Source: SAR86 cluster bacterium AG-422-P06 (GTDB lineage Bacteria; Pseudomonadota; Gammaproteobacteria; Magnimaribacterales; TMED112). Taken from it: DNA of 53,523 bases. Where the stretch lies: NCBI GenBank assembly GCA_003213455.1, contig QCMX01000003.1:1-53523 (forward strand), given 5' to 3'. A model generated the notes under the pieces. It made no database searches, was not told the origin of the DNA, and worked only from the letters and a program-made list of their open reading frames with translations. Shown here piece by piece: positions 915 through 32,931 of the stretch. A program made the position numbers and the translations under genes. Numbering within the stretch: position 1 is the first letter of the stretch; each line of letters opens with the position of its first letter.

Positions 915-1892
915 ATCTTTGACTAAATCTCTTTCTTCAACCAATTCATTTGCAGTTTTTTCTAATCCTTTTTTTGCAAAATCACTAAGACTATAATCTC
1001 GAACAATCTCAACAGAGCCTTTACCATCTGAGATTAGAGGAAAACCAGAAAATATACCCTTAGGCATACCATAAGCACCATCGCTCATTACCGCAGCGTT
1101 AAACACATCACCTGATCTAGTAGGATGTTCAACAGCTTTTACTGTATCGCAAGCTGCTCTTGCAGCTGATGATGCTGAAGAAGCACCTCTAGCTTTGATT
1201 ATTTCTGCACCTCTTTGTTGAATTTTGGGAAGAAAATCATTCTCAACCCAGTCATGATCATCTATTTCTTGGTATGCCTTTTTACCCGCTACTATTGTAT
1301 TTTCTAAATCAGGAAACATTGTTGGGCTGTGGTTACCAAATATTGCCAAACGGTATATATCATCAACATGGCAACCCAGTTTTTGGGACAGTTGTGCTTT
1401 TGCTCTAAGCGCATCAAGCATAGTCATTGCCATCCATAACTGAGTAGCTTTCCCTGCACTTTTGTATCCAATCAATGCATTAGTATTTGCTGGATTTCCA
1501 ACAACAAGAATTTTGCAATGTTCTTTTGCATGAGCACCAATTGCTTTTCCTTGTTCTGTAAAGATTCCACCATTTATTTGTAGTAGATCTGATCTTTCTT
1601 TGATTTCTTTACCATTTAGAACTATTCCTCTGGGTATAGAGCCCACCAAAAGACACCAATCAGCATCAACAACTGCATTTTCTATGTTGTCAAAAGTACT
1701 TATTGAACTAACAGTTGAATAAGCTGAATCCTCAAGTTCTTTTACAAAACCATCAAGTCTGCCCATGGCTTGTGGTATTTCAACTAAATTTAAATCTAAC
1801 TTTTCATTGGAATTAAAAATACCCTTTTCACAAAGGAAAGGTATCAAAGAATATGCTATTTGACCTGCTGCACCTGTTATTACTACTTTCAT
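906..1892 (-). CDS. mdh: Malate dehydrogenase (NAD-dependent)
   Basis: Oxidises malate to oxaloacetate in the TCA and glyoxylate cycles. The 328-residue protein has the Rossmann start TGAAGQIAYSL (residues 6-16), VVGNPANTNAL, the catalytic Asp and Arg in MLDALRAKAQL and the catalytic His in FGNHSPTMFPD. It belongs to the roughly 325-330 aa LDH-like MDH group rather than the 312-aa enteric form. The mobile substrate loop is unusual: between the two arginines (PR...ERSDLL) there are about 11 residues, where the family normally has about five (PRxxGMxRxDL). The gene is convergent with the MORN gene and divergent from the SDR gene. Aldehyde or lactate specificity is unlikely given the retained Arg/Asp/His set, but the long loop could alter substrate handling. 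Confidence 0.93.
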   Translation of the reverse strand: MKVVITGAAGQIAYSLIPFLCEKGIFNSNEKLDLNLVEIPQAMGRLDGFVKELEDSAYSTVSSISTFDNIENAVVDADWCLLVGSIPRGIVLNGKEIKERSDLLQINGGIFTEQGKAIGAHAKEHCKILVVGNPANTNALIGYKSAGKATQLWMAMTMLDALRAKAQLSQKLGCHVDDIYRLAIFGNHSPTMFPDLENTIVAGKKAYQEIDDHDWVENDFLPKIQQRGAEIIKARGASSASSAARAACDTVKAVEHPTRSGDVFNAAVMSDGAYGMPKGIFSGFPLISDGKGSVEIVRDYSLSDFAKKGLEKTANELVEERDLVKDLI

Positions 1893-1985
1893 TTCTTGTA
1901 AAAAATAATCTTTATTCTATGTTTACTTGTGATCGATTTCCATTAGAATTTACACTCTAACAGTTTATTTTAAAGGAGTCAGAGA

Positions 1986-2897
1986 ATGTCACTAGATTTT
2001 GAAGGAAAAGTTGCCATTGTTACCGGATCAGGCGGTGGAATTGGTAAAGGGTACGCATTGGAATTAGCACAAAGAGGTGCAAAAGTTGTTGTTAATGATT
2101 TGGGAGGAGCAGTAGATGGTTCTGGCGGCTCTGTATCTGCAGCTGAAGCAGTTGTTCAAGAAATAGAAGCTGCTGGCGGTGAAGCTATTGCAAATGGTGC
2201 AAATGTTTGTTCAGAAGAAGATGTGAAAGCCATGGTTGATAATGTCATGACTAAATGGGGCAGGGTAGATATTCTTGTCAATAACGCAGGAATTCTTAGA
2301 GATAAATCTTTTGCAAAAATGGATTGGTCAGATTTTGTAACAGTCGTGAATGTTCATCTAATGGGTTCTGCATTATGTGCACATACAGTATTTCCAATCA
2401 TGAAAGAACAAGAATATGGAAGAATAATAATGACAAGCTCTTCTTCAGGTTTGTTTGGTAACTTTGGTCAAACCAATTATGGAGCAGCAAAAATGGGTGT
2501 TGTTGGTCTAATGAATACTTTGAAGCTTGAGGGAGCGAAATATAATATTCACACTAACTCTGTTGCTCCAACTGCAACAACACGTATGACAGAGCACTTG
2601 TTTCCTGCTGAGTTTGCAGAAAAGCTTGACCCCCGTTTAATTATTCCTGCAGTTGTCTTTTTAGCTAGTGAAAAAGCTCCGAACGGAGAAATCTTAGAAG
2701 TTGGCGGAGGCGTTGTTGCTAATACATACATCATGGAAACTATGGGTAAATATTTTGGCACTGATGAAGGCTTTAATGCAGAGGCTGTTGCTGATCATTG
2801 GTCTGAAGTGATAGATACCACGGATGCAAAAAGACCATTTCAAGGTGGAGATGTTGCAATTAAGCATTTAGAAACTATTGGGAAATCAGAAAGTTAA
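1986..2897 (+). CDS. Short-chain dehydrogenase, (3R)-hydroxyacyl-CoA dehydrogenase type
   Basis: A 303-residue SDR with a strong ribosome site (AAAGGAGT, 8 bp before ATG). It shows the cofactor motif TGSGGGIGKG (residues 13-22), the structural NNAG (about 98-101), a catalytic Ser in the TSSSSG stretch and YGAAK. The insertion VVNDLGGAVDGSGGS after beta-2 and the long C-terminal tail are characteristic of the SDR domain of peroxisomal multifunctional enzyme 2 and its bacterial homologues, which oxidise 3-hydroxyacyl-CoA. A role in fatty-acid or sterol side-chain oxidation is therefore likely but inferred. It is monocistronic: promoter region shared with mdh and its own terminator downstream. 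Confidence 0.85.
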   Translation: MSLDFEGKVAIVTGSGGGIGKGYALELAQRGAKVVVNDLGGAVDGSGGSVSAAEAVVQEIEAAGGEAIANGANVCSEEDVKAMVDNVMTKWGRVDILVNNAGILRDKSFAKMDWSDFVTVVNVHLMGSALCAHTVFPIMKEQEYGRIIMTSSSSGLFGNFGQTNYGAAKMGVVGLMNTLKLEGAKYNIHTNSVAPTATTRMTEHLFPAEFAEKLDPRLIIPAVVFLASEKAPNGEILEVGGGVVANTYIMETMGKYFGTDEGFNAEAVADHWSEVIDTTDAKRPFQGGDVAIKHLETIGKSES

Positions 2898-2915
2898 ATT
2901 ATCTCTTTCTCAAAT

Positions 2916-2945
2916 AAAAAAGGCTCATAAAGAGCCTTTTTTTTT
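2916..2945 (+). terminator. Rho-independent terminator (possibly bidirectional)
   Basis: A perfect 6-bp stem AGGCTC / GAGCCT with loop ATAAA is followed by a run of nine T. It is also preceded by a run of A, so it can act for the SDR gene on the plus strand and for nrdB on the minus strand. Confidence 0.88.
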
Positions 2946-2988
2946 GAGAGCACCACCAATAGTTGCAGACCTAAGGCAGTGCAAAACT

Positions 2989-4287
2989 CTAGTCGTCAAA
3001 TTTTAGAGAACCACCTACTTGATACTCAATCACTCTTGTTTCAAAGAAGTTTTTCTCTTTTCTTAAATCCATGATTTCTGACATCCATGGGAATGGATTT
3101 TCAGCGCCTGGATAAGCTTCAGGAAGATTAATCTGAGTAAGACGTCTATTGCAGACATATTTTAAATACTCTTCCATAGTTTTGGCATTCATGCCTAGAA
3201 CACCTCTTGGCATTGTGTCTCTGGCATAGTTAATTTCAAGCTCTGTTCCCTCTACAATCATATCGGAAGCTCTCTTCTTCATTTCTTCGTCCCATAGACC
3301 AGGATTCTCATTAATAATTGAATTGATAACGTCTATTCCAAAATTAACATGCATTGATTCATCTCTCATGATGTATTGGAATTGTTCTGAAACTCCTGTC
3401 ATTTTATTTCTTCGTCCCATAGAAAGAATTTGAGAGAAACCACAATAAAAGAACATTCCTTCTAGAACACAATAGAAAGCAATTAAGTTTGATAAGAAGA
3501 GCTTATCCTTCTCTGGAGTCCCTGTTTCAAAGTTTGGGTCTTCAAGCGCTTGAGTATACTTTAATCCCCAAGCTGCTTTTGCTTCAACGCATGGCACTTC
3601 TCTATACATATTGAAGATTTCACCTTCATCCATACCAAGAGATTCAACGCAGTATTGGTATGCATGAGTATGTATTGCTTCCTCAAAAGCTTGTCTAAGT
3701 AAATATTGTCTACATTCTGGGTTAGTGATGTGCTTATAGACAGCCAGAACAACATTATTTGCTACCAATGAATCTGCTGTAGAAAAGAAGCCTAAACTTC
3801 TTTTTATAATTGTTCTTTCATCTTCTGTTAGCCCATCTTCTGACTTCCATAAAGCAATGTCAGCCGTCATGTTAATTTCTTGAGGCATCCAATGGTTTGC
3901 TGTTCCATCTAGGTATTTTTCCCATGCCCACTTATATTTAAAAGGGACAAGCTGATTCAGATCTGCCTTTGAATTTATCATAGCTTTTTGACCGACTTGT
4001 ACCCTACCTTCTAATGCGCTTGCCATTCTTTCACGAACTTTCTCAAGCTCTGCTTCAGTTGGCTCCTTCATTGTTGTGTAATTTTCAATATCTTGCATTG
4101 CTTCTGAAGACATATCTTCAGTAACAAGGGTATCTGTATCTGATGACTGAACTTGTTCTTGTTGAACTTGTGATTCTTGTGGAATCGTTTCAGCTTCAGT
4201 TACTTCTGCTACTCTCGGTTCAGGATTTTTTGTTTCTTCCTTTTTAACCGGAGCTTCGTCTTTATAATAGTCTTCCCAACTTAACAT
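2989..4287 (-). CDS. nrdB: Class Ia ribonucleotide reductase, beta (radical) subunit
   Basis: Supplies the tyrosyl radical for reduction of ribonucleotides by NrdA. The track starts at a GTG at 4308; ATG 4287 is preferred because GGAGGA sits just before it, leaving 11 bp after nrdA. With that start (432 aa) the di-iron ligands are Asp172, Glu203/His206 (EEAIHTHAY), Glu276 (LEGMFF) and Glu310/His313 (RDESMH). The radical tyrosine is Tyr210, spaced exactly as Tyr122 is from its ligands in the E. coli protein. The C-terminal tail (GGSLKFDD) is the expected NrdA-docking peptide. Residues about 10-75 form a Glu/Gln/Thr-rich, probably disordered extension not present in short NrdB proteins. Transcribed with nrdA from the NrdR-controlled promoter. 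Confidence 0.95.
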
Positions 4288-4298
4288 AATTTCCTCCG

Positions 4299-7097
4299 TT
4301 ATTGACACGCCTCACAATCTGGATCAAGTATGCTGCAAGCACTCGGTGCTTGTGACGCTGTTTGCGCTTCTTGACTTGATTGCACAGCATTTAAGCTGCT
4401 CCTCTCCACCGTTGATTTTTCAGTTGCGGTTGCTCCCATTGATCTTAAATAATATGTTGTTTTAAGACCTTTATACCACGCCATTCTGTATGTTATATCT
4501 AATTTCTTTCCATCTACATTTGCTATATAGAGGTTTAGGGATTGTGCTTGGTCAATCCATTTTTGTCTTCTACTGGCTGCTTCAACTATGAATCTAGGTT
4601 CCACTTCAAAAGCAGTCTTAAACTTATTTTTAATGTGTTCAGGAACTCGGTTTATCTGTTTCAGTGAACCTTCAAAGTATTTGAGATCACTTAGCATAAC
4701 TTCATCCCACAAGTTCTCTTTTTTCAACTCTTCAATAAGGTATGGGTTAACAACAGTAAACTCTCCTGAAAGATTAGATTTAACATATAAATTTTGATAG
4801 GTCGGTTCAATCGACTGAGATACACCTGTAATATTAGCGATGGTTGCTGTTGGAGCTATTGCCATTACATTTGAGTTTCTTATTCCATGTGCCGCAACCT
4901 TTTCCTTTAACTTATCCCAATCTAAGGTCTTTTCTGTATTTTGATCAATAAATTCTTTTCCTCTTTGTTCCGTGAGGAGATTAATTGAATCTAGTGGAAA
5001 AATTCCATTATCCCAGAGTGACCCTTTATATGTTTCATATACTCCTTTTTCTTCAGCAAGCTCACAAGAAGCTTCAATAGCAAAGTAACTTATTAACTCC
5101 ATAGATCTGTCCGCAAATTCAACAGCATCTTCTGAGTCATATGAAATCCCGAGCTTATACAAAGCATCCTGGAAGCCCATTAACCCAAGACCAATCGGTC
5201 TATGTTTTTTATTTGAATTCTCTGCCTGAGGAACAGGGTAAAAGTTTATATCGATCACATTGTCCAACATCCTTATGGCTGTTTTCACTGTGCCTTTCAG
5301 TTGTTCTATATTGATTTTTCCTTCACTGATATGTTGAGGTAAATTTACACTACCTAAATTGCATACAGCTATCTCATCCTCGTTTGTATTTAAGGTTATT
5401 TCTGTGCATAGGTTTGAAGAATGGACTGTACCAACATGTCCTTGAGGGGATCTTATATTGCATGGATCCTTAAATGTCACCCATGGGTGGCCTGTTTCAA
5501 AAAGCATTGAAAGAATTTTTCTCCATAAGTCCTTTGCTTCTATGGTCTTATAAAATTTAATCTCGCCTGCTTCAGCCATTTTTTCGTACTCTTCATATCT
5601 TTTTTCAAACTCAGTACCGTAAATATCATGTAAGTCTGGAACATCAGAAGGAGAGAAAAGGGTCCATTTCTCATTTTTTTCTAACCTTTTCATAAAGAGG
5701 TCAGGGATCCAATTAGCAGTGTTCATATCATGTGTTCTTCTTCGATCATCCCCTGTATTTTTTCTCAGGTCTAAAAATTCCTCTACATCCATGTGCCAGC
5801 ATTCAAGATAAGCGCAAAAAGCACCTTTTCTCTTTCCACCTTGATTAACTGCAACTGCTGTATCATTCGATACTTTAAGGAAAGGCACTATCCCTTGGCT
5901 CTTTCCATTTGTTCCCTTAATCCTTGACCCTAAAGCGCGAACAGGGGTCCAATCATTTCCTAATCCACCAGCCCATTTTGAAAGCAAGGCATTGTCTCTT
6001 ATTGCACCGTATATACCAGATAGATCATCAGGCACTGTGGTTAAATAACAAGAAGAAAGTTGTGGACGATTAGTTCCTGAGTTAAATAAAGTAGGAGTCG
6101 AACTCATATAGTCAAAACTTGAAAGTAGCTTATAAAACTCAACTGCTTTTTCATTTTTATTTTCTTCGTTTATTGCAAGACCCATAGCTACCCGCATGAA
6201 AAATACCTGAGGCATCTCATAACGAGTCTCTTCATGTGTAATGAAATATCTATCATATAAAGTTTGTAATCCTAAATATGTAAATTGGAAATCTCTCTTT
6301 TCGAGCAGAGCTGCTCCGAGTTTTTCTAAATCAAATGTTTTTAGTTCTTCGCTTAGAAAATCAAGCTCAATTCCTTTATCAACTGTTTTTGTGAGTGCTT
6401 CCATATACATTTTTGCTCTATCTTTTCTTTCTTTGATATTCAGGAAGCTACACACTTCATTTTCCATATTGTTTAGGAGCAGGCGTGCCGTAACATAGGA
6501 ATAGTTAGGCTCTTTCTCGACCATTGTTCTTGCTGTCATGAGCATGCTTTCTGCGAGATCTTTTTCAGATATACCATCATAGGTGGCATTTTTGATCTCA
6601 GTGGCAAGTAAGGCCTCATCAACGTTATCAAGATCAGTGCAAGCTTTCTTTACAGCAGCGTCTATTATCTCTTGTACACTTTGTTCTATACTTCTGCTGT
6701 CTTCTTTTTCTTCAACTCTCTCATTTTTTCGAGCTTCTCTGTATAAGACATAAGATCTTGCAACCTTATGATGTTCATTTCTCATTAATTGAAGCTCTAC
6801 TTGGTCTTGGATCTCTTCTATATGAATTGTTCCACCAGAAGGCATTCTTCTCTCGAAAACTTTAATTATGTCTTGCGCCATTTGATCAACTTCTTCGTGT
6901 ATTCTTGAAGAACCAGCAGCAGTACCACCTTCTACTGCTAGAAATGCTTTCATTATTGCAACCTTGATCTTTTCTTCTTCGAAGGAAACGACTTTTCCAT
7001 TCCTTTTTATGACTCTAATTTTTCCTGGAGCCATTACTTGGTTAGGAGCTATTTCCTTTTTTTCTTCTGGTGTGTTTTGTGTTACTTGTTGTTCCAT
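4299..7097 (-). CDS. nrdA: Class Ia ribonucleotide reductase, alpha (catalytic) subunit
   Basis: Reduces NDPs to dNDPs. ATG 7097 is preferred to the track's GTG 7148, since the latter would place coding sequence through an NrdR operator. The 932-aa product starts with an ATP-cone activity-control domain ([16 protein letters not shown], about residues 28-45) followed by a linker and the reductase barrel. Catalytic residues are Cys350 (SSCYL), Asn562/Cys564/Glu566 (NLCTE) and Cys579 (AVCNLGS). The radical-transfer tyrosines are in TTYYLRSMG, and a C-terminal cysteine tail (C921, C928, C931) re-reduces the active site. It is longer than the 761-aa E. coli NrdA because of extra N-terminal regulatory sequence, as in pseudomonad NrdA. 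Confidence 0.95.
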
Positions 7098-7144
7098 TAC
7101 TTTAGGTATTTTTCTATAGATGGTGACGACATTCAAGCATTTCA

Positions 7145-7160
7145 ACACAATATGTTGTGT
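7145..7160 (-). promoter_or_regulatory. NrdR box 1 (proximal)
   Basis: ACACAATATGTTGTGT, inside a perfect 7-bp inverted repeat (AACACAA, TATG spacer, TTGTGTT). It matches the NrdR consensus and lies 48 bp upstream of the nrdA ATG. Confidence 0.9.
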
Positions 7161-7175
7161 TATTTTTTTATTTGC

Positions 7176-7191
7176 ACACTATATGCTGTAA
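7176..7191 (-). promoter_or_regulatory. NrdR box 2 (distal), overlapping the -10 element
   Basis: ACACTATATGCTGTAA is a slightly weaker NrdR box. Its start is exactly 31 bp (three helical turns) from box 1, the spacing characteristic of paired NrdR operators. It covers the candidate -10 of the nrdA promoter, which fits repression. Confidence 0.87.
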
Positions 7192-7206
7192 TCTTCTTGT
7201 TGATAA
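7178..7206 (-). promoter_or_regulatory. Candidate nrdAB sigma-70 promoter
   Basis: On the minus strand TTATCA (complement of 7201-7206) and TATAGT (complement of 7178-7183) are separated by exactly 17 bp. The -10 lies in NrdR box 2 and the -35 lies in a DnaA-like 9-mer. Position and overlaps are consistent with a regulated nrd promoter, but it is a motif-only call. Confidence 0.55.
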
Positions 7207-7217
7207 CTTATGGATAA
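7198..7217 (-). promoter_or_regulatory. Two weak DnaA-like 9-mers upstream of nrdA
   Basis: Minus-strand TTATCCATA (7209-7217) and TTATCAACA (7198-7206) each differ by one base from TTATCCACA and are 11 bp apart. DnaA sites upstream of nrdAB are known in E. coli, so linking dNTP synthesis to replication initiation is plausible here. Because the genome is AT-rich, chance cannot be excluded. Confidence 0.4.
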
Positions 7218-7287
7218 ATTGTTGTTTATTTAATAATATCCGTTTAAATAAAGCCTATAAATGTGTATTCTTTAAATCTCTTTCATA

Positions 7288-8472
7288 ATGAAAATAAAGA
7301 TACTAAATAACATAGCAAAAGAAGGTCTAGACATTCTTGGCCAAGGTAATTTTCAGATTGTTGATGAAGATGTTGATCCATCTGGAATTGTTCTAAGAAG
7401 TCATGATCTAACAAGCCTTCAAGTATCAAAAAATCTAATTGGAATAGCACGAGCTGGTGCAGGAACAAATAACATCAATATAAACGAATGCTCAAAACAC
7501 GGGGTTGTTGTTTTTAATACACCAGGCGCAAATGCAAATGCCGTAAAAGAAATGGTCATCTGTTCTCTGATTCTCTCGAAAAGAGATCTTGTATCTGGCA
7601 ATAAGAATCTAGACATGTTGGTGACAGAAAATAAGAGTGACTTGGAAATTAGTGCAGAGATTGAAGGTATGAAAAAAATTTACCAAGGGGAAGAGGTTAA
7701 AGGAAAAACACTGGGTGTGATAGGGCTTGGGGCAATTGGTTCCATGGTTGCTGAACAGTCGATGTCTTTTGGCCTGAAGGTTAATGCTTTTGATCCTGGT
7801 CTAACAGTGGATACAGCTCTACGCCTTCCTAGCAGCTTGAAAAGGTTTGATAGTATGGAAGAAGTATTACAAAACTCCGACTTTGTTTCCCTGCACCTTC
7901 CTTTAACAGAAAAGACCAAAGGGTTAATAAATGAAAGTAAATTAAAGTTAATGAAAAAAAACTCAGTCTTAATTAATTTCTCAAGAGGAGGAATAGTGGA
8001 TGAAAATAGTGTAATTAAATTCTTGGATAATCAGCACCTTTATAAATATGTTACAGATTTTCCAACAAAGGAACTTTTAGAAAGGCTTAATACAAAAAAG
8101 GATGTGATGATATTCCCACACTTAGGTGCTAGCACGAAAGAAAGTGAAGTTAATTGCGCAGTAATGGCTTGTTCTCAATTAAAAGATTTTATTGAGGAAG
8201 GCACAATCACCAATAGTGTAAATTTTCCTAATATAATTTCTGAAAAAATTGGCAAGCATAGAATCTTCATAACAAACAAAAATGAACCGGGCATTATAAG
8301 TAAAATTGCAGAGAGCTTAGCTACCAATAAAATTAATATTTTAGAGTTTGTAAACAAAAGTAGAGGCAATTTAGCCTGCAATATCATAGATACTGACGAT
8401 AAAATTGATGTTTCAATTGTCTCTAAGCTAGAGAAAATCAGCGGTGTTACAAATGCAAGACTTTGCTATTAA
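7288..8472 (+). CDS. serA: D-3-phosphoglycerate dehydrogenase-like protein (short ACT form)
   Basis: A 394-aa NAD-dependent 2-hydroxyacid dehydrogenase, probably catalysing the first step of serine synthesis. It has the Rossmann motif LGVIGLGAIGSMVAE (about residues 144-158), the substrate/catalytic arginine in INFSRGGIVDE, and the catalytic His in FPHLGAST. The C terminus (about 325-394) reads as a single ACT domain beginning HRIFITNKNEPGIISKIAE, which normally binds serine for feedback control. This matches the roughly 390-aa ACT-containing PGDH group rather than a simple lactate or glyoxylate reductase. No serine genes flank it. The promoter must lie in the 190-bp gap shared with nrdA; no strong ribosome site is visible. 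Confidence 0.85.
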   Translation: MKIKILNNIAKEGLDILGQGNFQIVDEDVDPSGIVLRSHDLTSLQVSKNLIGIARAGAGTNNININECSKHGVVVFNTPGANANAVKEMVICSLILSKRDLVSGNKNLDMLVTENKSDLEISAEIEGMKKIYQGEEVKGKTLGVIGLGAIGSMVAEQSMSFGLKVNAFDPGLTVDTALRLPSSLKRFDSMEEVLQNSDFVSLHLPLTEKTKGLINESKLKLMKKNSVLINFSRGGIVDENSVIKFLDNQHLYKYVTDFPTKELLERLNTKKDVMIFPHLGASTKESEVNCAVMACSQLKDFIEEGTITNSVNFPNIISEKIGKHRIFITNKNEPGIISKIAESLATNKINILEFVNKSRGNLACNIIDTDDKIDVSIVSKLEKISGVTNARLCY

Positions 8473-31480: not shown

Positions 31481-31809
31481 AAAAAATCCGATAATTGAGT
31501 AAATTTATTCAATATTAATATAAAAAATTAAAAAAATTGTTCGATTTATGCAAAAAATTCAAAATAGGGCCCAGAAAGCTTTTCTAGAAGAAATTATTGA
31601 AAATGTGAGATAGTAGTCAACTAATTATTAGAGACATATCTTAAACGTGAAATTTAAGAGTAATTTTTTTCTTCAAAATAATATTTTTTTAGCAATTTCA
31701 TAAATTTTAAAAACTAAGCAATTTTTTTTAGATATTTTTTTCGATCAATTACAAACTACAAAAATATATAAATTTTCTCAGGGTAGGTTAGTACTTTTTT
31801 TCCACACTT

Positions 31810-31818
31810 TTATCCACA
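31810..31818 (+). promoter_or_regulatory. DnaA-box 9-mer beside dif
   Basis: A perfect TTATCCACA lies 8 bp left of dif, with a one-mismatch TTTTCCACA nearby at about 31797-31805. In AT-rich DNA one such 9-mer is not strong evidence of a functional site. Confidence 0.4.
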
Positions 31819-31826
31819 TGCAAATA

Positions 31827-31854
31827 ACTTCGCATAATATATATTATGTTAAAT
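31827..31854 (+). other. dif: dif site: XerC/XerD chromosome dimer resolution site
   Basis: A 28-bp site: XerC arm ACTTCGCATAA (31827-31837), 6-bp centre TATATA (31838-31843), XerD arm TTATGTTAAAT (31844-31854). The XerD arm is identical to that of E. coli dif (11 of 11). The XerC arm fits the gammaproteobacterial pattern RNTKCGCATAA at every position. The centre differs from the common TGTATA by one base. dif lies opposite the origin, where XerC and XerD, activated by FtsK, resolve chromosome dimers. It therefore marks the replication terminus and the point where GC skew and KOPS polarity should switch. It sits in the sole large non-coding gap. XerC, XerD and FtsK are not encoded in the window. 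Confidence 0.93.
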
Positions 31855-31944
31855 ATATATAAGGATAAAATGTATTAAGTACATGCTTTAAATAGCTTAT
31901 TCTATATGGTTATTAGGAGATTATTAAATAATAGATAAAAATTT

Positions 31945-31955
31945 ATTTAACATAA
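31945..31955 (-). repeat. Second perfect XerD half-site in inverted orientation
   Basis: ATTTAACATAA is the exact complement of the dif XerD arm TTATGTTAAAT. It lies 91 bp from the right end of dif, on the opposite strand. The adjoining sequence ends in CATAA 5 bp away on the expected side, a degenerate XerC-like end. It may be a remnant of a Xer-dependent integration or a chance match. Confidence 0.55.
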
Positions 31956-31966
31956 TAATCTTATGA

Positions 31967-32440
31967 TTATGAATACCAAGGATGTTTGCCGTATTTATTC
32001 TTAGTTACCCTAGTGTTTGTATGTATATATTCAGAAAAACCTCTTACAACGTTATCTATATAACTTTGTAATCTATGCTTTATGTAAAGATGCCACAATA
32101 ACCATTTAATTATTTTATTTTTATATGGTAATTCTGGTTCTATAGTAATTTTCAGTGAAGATGCCTTTGAATTTCCTTCTACAAGCCATTTTACTCTAGC
32201 TACCTTACTCTTTACCCCTATATCTAGAACATATCCGCTCTCATCCCATTTAATGAATTCTCTACGGTATTTAAGCTTATTTAAATATTTAACATAATCT
32301 ATGGAGCCTTTTCCTGGCCATTTCTCTATTTTATTTTCTATACAAAATGGATGATAATTCTCTAAATTTCCAGGCACCCGTATAGCCTCTAATATTTTAG
32401 ATTTTTCCTTTTTGAATGTTTTTTTAGCTTCTACATACAT
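31967..32440 (-). CDS. SRPBCC-superfamily small protein
   Basis: A 157-aa protein whose first part, AIRVPGNLENYHPFCIENKIEKWPGKGSIDYV, follows the START/SRPBCC lipid-binding pattern of polyketide-cyclase-like proteins (helix-grip fold with conserved NLxxYHPF and WPG). Later strands include YVLDIGV and SSLKITIEPEL. The C terminus is basic and helical. No catalytic residues can be assigned. The gene is extremely AT-rich, overlaps the GNAT gene by 10 bp, and lies next to dif. Confidence 0.68.
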   Translation of the reverse strand: MYVEAKKTFKKEKSKILEAIRVPGNLENYHPFCIENKIEKWPGKGSIDYVKYLNKLKYRREFIKWDESGYVLDIGVKSKVARVKWLVEGNSKASSLKITIEPELPYKNKIIKWLLWHLYIKHRLQSYIDNVVRGFSEYIHTNTRVTKNKYGKHPWYS

Positions 32441-32931
32441 TTTTCATAGTATCTAACACCATATTCTGGATTTGAATATGCTTCAGAAACCTTTCTAAAG
32501 CCCATTTTTTCATGAAATTTAATTGATTCCTTATTTATTGGAACGATATTAACTTCCGCACAAATTGGTAAGCCTTTTTTTAAGCAAATATTATCTATTT
32601 TACTATATATGAAAGTTCCTAAACCCTTATTTTTAAAGCCTTTAACCACGCCTATACGGTCAATGTAGAAGAATCTTTTAAACCTTTTTTTGAAGAATTT
32701 ATAATTCATTGATTGGTATTGTGAATCTTCTCTAAAACATACCAAAAACGCGCAAATCTGGTTTTTGCTAGTAAGAAATATGCTGAAGTTTGATTTATCA
32801 ACTAAATCTCTTAGGTTATCTACAGTTCTAAGAGGCCCTAAAAATGGGTTATAACCTTCATTTATTTCAAATATTTCTTTTAAAGTTTCCTCATTAGCAG
32901 CTTTTAGATCGTGTATTTGAATATCATTCAT
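32431..32931 (-). CDS. GNAT-family N-acetyltransferase
   Basis: A 166-aa acyltransferase with motif A for acetyl-CoA binding, IGVVKGFKNKGLGTFIY (about residues 95-111), and the motif B region NKESIKFHEKMGFRKV (about 135-150) that ends most GNAT folds. Substrate unknown. It occupies the place next to infA where many gammaproteobacteria have aat/ate, but the fold signature is plain GNAT, not Aat. Divergent from infA with 50 bp between, and co-transcribed with the SRPBCC gene. Confidence 0.8.
   Translation of the reverse strand: MNDIQIHDLKAANEETLKEIFEINEGYNPFLGPLRTVDNLRDLVDKSNFSIFLTSKNQICAFLVCFREDSQYQSMNYKFFKKRFKRFFYIDRIGVVKGFKNKGLGTFIYSKIDNICLKKGLPICAEVNIVPINKESIKFHEKMGFRKVSEAYSNPEYGVRYYEKCM

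Follow-up and report, generated by a model that had tools for sequence, protein, structure and literature searches.

The dif locus of the window and its inverted XerD arm

The window, a stretch of 53,523 nucleotides from the SAR86 cluster bacterium AG-422-P06, carries a dif site composed of two 11-bp arms and a 6-bp centre and matching gammaproteobacterial dif (Table 1). The site is intergenic and lies between an M14 peptidase gene and a 157-aa ORF, beyond which a GNAT acetyltransferase gene is found. The original prediction had labelled these last two genes SRPBCC and GNAT; the GNAT label was supported by a Pfam match, whereas no Pfam family was recognised in the 157-aa ORF. It had also reported an exact copy of the XerD arm on the opposite strand beside dif, and this copy, hereafter the half-site, is indeed present 90 bp beyond dif, the intervening DNA containing no genes. 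Scattered columns of this spacer exceed 0.6 bit of weighted information, and the stretch that they form is a possible candidate site for another protein. Across the 687-kb assembly there are three copies of the XerD 11-mer, and a stretch of 454 bp contains them all. The third copy was rejected as a further site: it consists of codons for D-Y-V-K-Y, for which relatives use other synonymous codons, and is a codon coincidence in four close species. As a check on the terminus, GC skew was followed in sampled stretches of one complete genome and displayed no clear switch.

Table 1. Features of the dif locus (positions in the window)
Feature	Position	Strand	Sequence or remark
M14 peptidase gene	start 31480	-	
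DnaA-box-like sequences	31798-31806 and 31810-31818		
dif	31827-31854	+	ACTTCGCATAA TATATA TTATGTTAAAT
dif, XerC arm	31827-31837	+	ACTTCGCATAA
dif, centre	31838-31843	+	TATATA
dif, XerD arm	31844-31854	+	TTATGTTAAAT
Spacer from dif to inverted XerD arm	31855-31944		90 bp; diverged sequence, length nearly fixed in the genus
Weakly conserved spacer stretch	31887-31922		consensus roughly GCTnaaannCtTttTttAtgnGGTtttTAGAnnaTT
Invariant 14-mer	31943-31956	-	ATTATGTTAAATAA; contains the inverted XerD arm; in 20/20 congeneric dif loci
Inverted XerD arm (half-site)	31945-31955	-	ATTTAACATAA on + (= TTATGTTAAAT on -); exact copy of the dif arm
XerC-like end	31961-31971	-	TTATGATTATG; 5-bp spacing; overlaps the stop codon of the 157-aa ORF
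157-aa ORF	31967-32440	-	no Pfam family
Third exact XerD 11-mer	32287-32297	-	within the 157-aa ORF
GNAT acetyltransferase gene	32431-32931	-	Pfam match

Conservation of the half-site within the SAR86 genus

Relatives were searched for dif with at most one mismatch; a site was found in 51 of 61, with one copy per genome in nearly all of them. Nineteen other genomes of the same genus had a dif site, and about 6 kb around each (less at contig ends) was retrieved; the resulting 20 loci belong to one genus of SAR86, probably GTDB genus TMED112. The original prediction was open to refutation either by loss of the half-site in close relatives or by a similar density of the 11-mer across the genome. 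Neither was observed: the inverted 11-mer is exact in all 20 dif loci, always on the same side and in the same orientation, and outside dif loci the 11-mer occurs about once per Mb (21 congeners, counted by hand from a table). Measured from the start of dif, the arm is located at 117-120 bp in 16 of the 19 congeners and at 128 bp in the other 3. As the complete genome CP097968 ('TMED112-A1') has the arrangement, it is not an assembly artefact. One congener, G008, gave no dif match, and its single 11-mer is in apparently coding DNA. Outside the set, contig PARR01000042, labelled Rickettsiales bacterium SP101, carries the dif arrangement of the SAR86 genus with a spacing of 118 bp and is either a misassigned contig or part of a misnamed bin.

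Alignment of the 20 loci delimited the conserved elements. The 14-mer TTATTTAACATAAT is invariant throughout, as are 24 columns of dif; no column of the spacer is, and mean pairwise identity there is 0.47 versus a random expectation of 0.33. The length from dif to the 14-mer is nevertheless 87-90 bp in 17 loci and 98 bp in 3. When 9- to 14-mers common to all 20 loci within 1.2 kb of dif were sought de novo, only pieces of the 14-mer were recovered besides dif. Together with its inner neighbour, the XerD arm of dif forms 12 consecutive bases that are identical in the half-site. The XerD arms, in dif and half-site alike, are identical throughout the genus, which leaves no co-variation between the two to be seen. 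The degenerate XerC-like end named in the original prediction did not withstand this comparison: nothing equivalent is conserved in relatives, and it is probably due to chance. With no conserved XerC arm next to the half-site in the 20 loci, a second complete dif, or a site of the pdif type, was likewise discarded.

The genes surrounding the half-site turn over. L040 lacks the 157-aa gene, L047 has it displaced and L045 lacks both it and the GNAT gene, and the half-site is kept in each case; to the left of dif, the M14 gene was undetected in nine of the congeneric loci. In another SAR86 family (f3; L013, L020, L021) a homologue of the 157-aa ORF is found close to dif without a half-site, and the 157-aa gene is therefore an old neighbour rather than cargo. 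Likewise, the absence of the GNAT gene beside dif in L045 indicates that it is not linked to the half-site. The proposal that these genes are the cargo of a mobile element, of which the half-site would be a remnant, is not supported, as the genes turn over while the half-site stays fixed.

Outside the genus, no exact arm was detected within about 1.5 kb of dif in 30 loci from three other SAR86 families. Within 1 kb of 118 other gammaproteobacterial dif loci, one exact arm and five arms with one mismatch were found, which is no enrichment: the reversed control motif gave 0 exact and 9 one-mismatch occurrences in the same loci. A general gammaproteobacterial feature was rejected on this lack of excess over the reversed motif.

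Recurrence in Psychromonas and a possible helical phase of the spacing

We scanned 84,980 species for dif-like sites that have an inverted XerD arm 75-105 bp further on. Matches were obtained in the SAR86 genus, in seven Psychromonas species, in one Thiothrix and in a few scattered genomes, where they resemble chance occurrences or parts of longer inverted repeats. A 5-kb contig of Bacteroidia bacterium MS495-7 (BNTR01000165, 1173-1312) has two complete, inverted dif-like sites about 100 bp apart. In Thiothrix eikelboomii the 11-mer is present twice in 4.1 Mb, as dif and as an inverted arm at 108 bp; being a single genome, it is only a lead. The Psychromonas group comprised 24 genomes, 18 of which have a dif fitting the pattern, and all 18 loci carry the inverted XerD arm on the XerD side of dif in the same orientation as in SAR86, at distances of 94-96 bp (8 loci), 104-107 bp (5) and 127-131 bp (5). 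Here the arm sits in a conserved block, TATTgAACATAATnntATTTAACATAAAATGTATAAyaTAC, in which a second XerD-like arm (mostly TTATGTTCAAT) usually lies 15-16 bp nearer dif and further bases, AAATGTATAA..TAC, are conserved after the arm. In an alignment of seven species the spacer and both flanks are diverged. A promoter in the block was discarded as no gene is consistently downstream, and no convincing match was found that would give the block a phage or plasmid origin. Several Psychromonas spacers, among them L259, L267 and L273, share a GGATCCAGATCTGATC stretch between dif and the block that places three GATC sites within 15 bp.

The spacings of the two lineages fall into classes near 95, 106, 118 and 129 bp, and a single phase accommodates all of them if a turn takes about 11.2 bp. 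For periods of 11.0-11.3 bp, the mean phase in Psychromonas differs from that in SAR86 by no more than 0.4 bp. Looping assays are compatible with a helical repeat of nearly 11 bp in vivo. Independent changes of spacing are few, one jump of 10 bp in SAR86 and at least two in Psychromonas, so that helical phasing of the half-site relative to dif is suggestive, not proven. Phase randomisation is blind to ancestry, and its p-value is not for use. In a tree of the XerD proteins the midpoint root has the 118-bp spacing on either side; of the three genomes with 128 bp, the tree includes two, and these form one clade.

A putative accessory XerD site and its alternatives

Of 21 congeners, 18 encode a XerD that scores above the curated cut-off and 19 encode two recombinases of the XerC/D type, the assemblies being incomplete; the second one is presumably XerC. 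The single recombinase of the window's own assembly scores under the XerD cut-off, which fits the 66% completeness of that assembly. XerD proteins are strongly diverged across the genus and retain the catalytic region HTLRH...LGH...TQIYTH. The FtsK-gamma domain was found in 15 of 21 congeners, the remaining six being assemblies that are 70-84% complete, and a site compensating for a lost FtsK-gamma was dismissed on its presence in the genus.

In the reading that we prefer, and to which we would give an even chance, the half-site is an accessory XerD-binding site of the dif locus that acts in cis and in helical register on XerCD-dif. XerD, alone or with a partner, would occupy the inverted 14-bp site, which lies some 90 bp out from the XerD arm of dif, and its helical phase to the XerD on dif would be constant. 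Contact between both complexes would be made in cis, either by looping of the short intervening DNA or by wrapping into one nucleoprotein complex, the spacer perhaps being bent by another protein, and the outcome would be a tuned loading of XerD or a tuned readiness of XerCD-dif for FtsK-triggered recombination. The invariance of the site, its near-fixed and apparently phased spacing, its constant side and orientation, its independence of neighbouring genes, the rarity of the 11-mer, the conserved catalytic region of XerD and the presence of FtsK-gamma all argue for such a site. Binding of XerD is suggested by the 12-base identity with the dif arm and the place beside dif, contact in cis by the phasing, and an effect on dimer resolution, through control of loading, synapsis or activation, by the position. 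The idea, already part of the original prediction, that the half-site could modulate Xer binding at dif gains support from conservation, near-fixed spacing and phasing. Against a loop in cis, DNA of 67-101 bp would require strong bending, and no site for a bending protein was identified.

The usual portrayal of dif is that of a self-sufficient 28-bp site, controlled by FtsK alone and working without accessory DNA. The SAR86 locus shares with the XerCD/dif system of the E. coli type the usual pair of 11-bp arms around a 6-bp centre, with XerD and FtsK-gamma encoded, and differs from it by a conserved, inverted and apparently phased XerD arm about 90 bp away. By analogy, it may resemble the plasmid sites cer and psi, in which a Xer core is joined by extra DNA at a set distance into a nucleoprotein complex. 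At these plasmid sites the accessory proteins are ArgR or ArcA, together with PepA; in cer, ArgR and PepA bind some 180 bp of accessory DNA (PMC5357621). In SAR86, unlike in cer and psi, the accessory element would be the XerD arm itself, and it is chromosomal. No description of a XerD half-site beside a chromosomal dif was found in the literature searched, a search that most subscription papers fell outside.

A broader version of the accessory-site reading, which we advance tentatively and at somewhat under an even chance, is that of a compound dif locus in which a phased inverted half-site and XerCD-dif would together, in cis, exert local control over dimer resolution, the arrangement being fixed in one SAR86 genus and apparently independent in Psychromonas. 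In these two groups dif is probably more than the textbook 28-bp site. A phased half-site selected in two unrelated lineages would mean that dif is, in some bacteria, part of a larger nucleoprotein structure. As Psychromonas has cultured species, the role of the extra XerD in recombination control, FtsK stopping or SMC unloading is directly testable.

The last of these roles, in which XerD landing at the half-site would unload Smc-ScpAB at the terminus independently of recombination, as in Bacillus subtilis, we consider unlikely. What the two systems would have in common is a XerD that acts at the terminus outside recombination. For XerD unloading in B. subtilis we are not aware of another site at a near-fixed, phased distance, and unloading does not predict the distance seen here. 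In B. subtilis, XerD is reported to unload SMC in a site-specific manner (PMC12322038, PMC8242196), and it has been inferred more widely that SMC is unloaded at dif (PMC13342612). ScpB and a protein with an Smc head are encoded in the genus; however, related SAR86 families with ScpB are without the half-site, and the Smc-like protein of the genus, of about 735 aa and with no recognised hinge, may differ in its mode of action. Both ends of this protein (L279:462-2666, minus strand, and homologues) consist of canonical Smc head sequences. Pfam recognised no hinge in it, which is not proof as the hinge model also missed Caulobacter.

FtsK-gamma contacts XerD, the recombinase of the XerD side of dif. 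A XerD bound at the half-site might thus serve as a stop or parking signal that contacts FtsK as it arrives on the XerD side, keeping the motor in the gap that separates half-site and dif. The half-site is always on the XerD side, FtsK-gamma is conserved in the genus and the gap of 67-101 bp could accommodate a hexamer. Yet parking does not need helical phasing, and most gammaproteobacteria with FtsK-gamma are without a half-site, which makes this role quite improbable in our view.

We give still less credit to a site at which some protein distinct from XerD binds a motif similar to the XerD arm. At 14 bp the conserved core extends slightly beyond the XerD 11-mer, and additional bases are conserved after the arm in Psychromonas; but 12 consecutive bases equal dif, the site is placed beside dif and the 11-mer recurs by dif in an unrelated genus.

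There is very little to recommend a remnant or attachment site of an element exploiting Xer recombination (IMEX, CTXphi-like), with or without cargo. The attP1 and attP2 sites of CTXphi are likewise dif-like, inverted and about 90 nt apart (PMC5357621), the module stands between dif and an ORF that abuts dif in another SAR86 family, and a filamentous provirus bearing a Zot gene adjoins dif in the Psychromonas-type contig L277. The CTXphi sites, however, are phage-borne and resemble dif on the XerC side, whereas in SAR86 the copy is of the XerD arm alone and there is no phage. Classical integration is expected to leave direct repeats and not an inverted single arm. The site is perfectly conserved in 20 species although its neighbours change, the 90 bp are devoid of genes, and 14 bp preserved without change in saturated DNA are unlike a remnant. 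A scan of viral contigs returned two matches, one of them a Psychromonas-type dif. In L277 (IMGVR_UViG_3300025738_000030, 1454-1586 and 1600-8073) the filamentous phage, which encodes a Zot-family protein, a small coat-like protein and a replication-like protein, is apparently integrated at the dif that has the XerD-arm block.

Inverted arms could also form a hairpin in RNA or single-stranded DNA (a terminator, an sRNA or a cruciform), and a perfect 12-bp stem can be drawn between dif and half-site; no compensatory change was seen in any pair, the DNA folding z-score is an unremarkable -1.15 and phasing would be unexpected, and we regard a hairpin as highly improbable. Chance or shared ancestry without function is hardly credible: the window by itself offers one short match, but 14 invariant columns beside a spacer with none, in a genus of strongly diverged XerD, and the recurrence in Psychromonas refute chance in practice for the 14-mer.

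A separate observation concerns DnaA boxes. The box TTATCCACA is positioned exactly at -17 from dif in 6 of the 20 congeners, compared with 0.16 expected, and five of those six have a second box-like sequence, TTWTNCACA, at -29; congeneric loci with a DnaA box near dif include L036, L038, L044, L048 and L053. No such box was detected within 150 bp of dif in the 118 other gammaproteobacterial loci. In SAR86 family f2, the same box is found on the other side of dif, at +34/+35, in 6 of 11 loci (L026, L027 and L030-L033).
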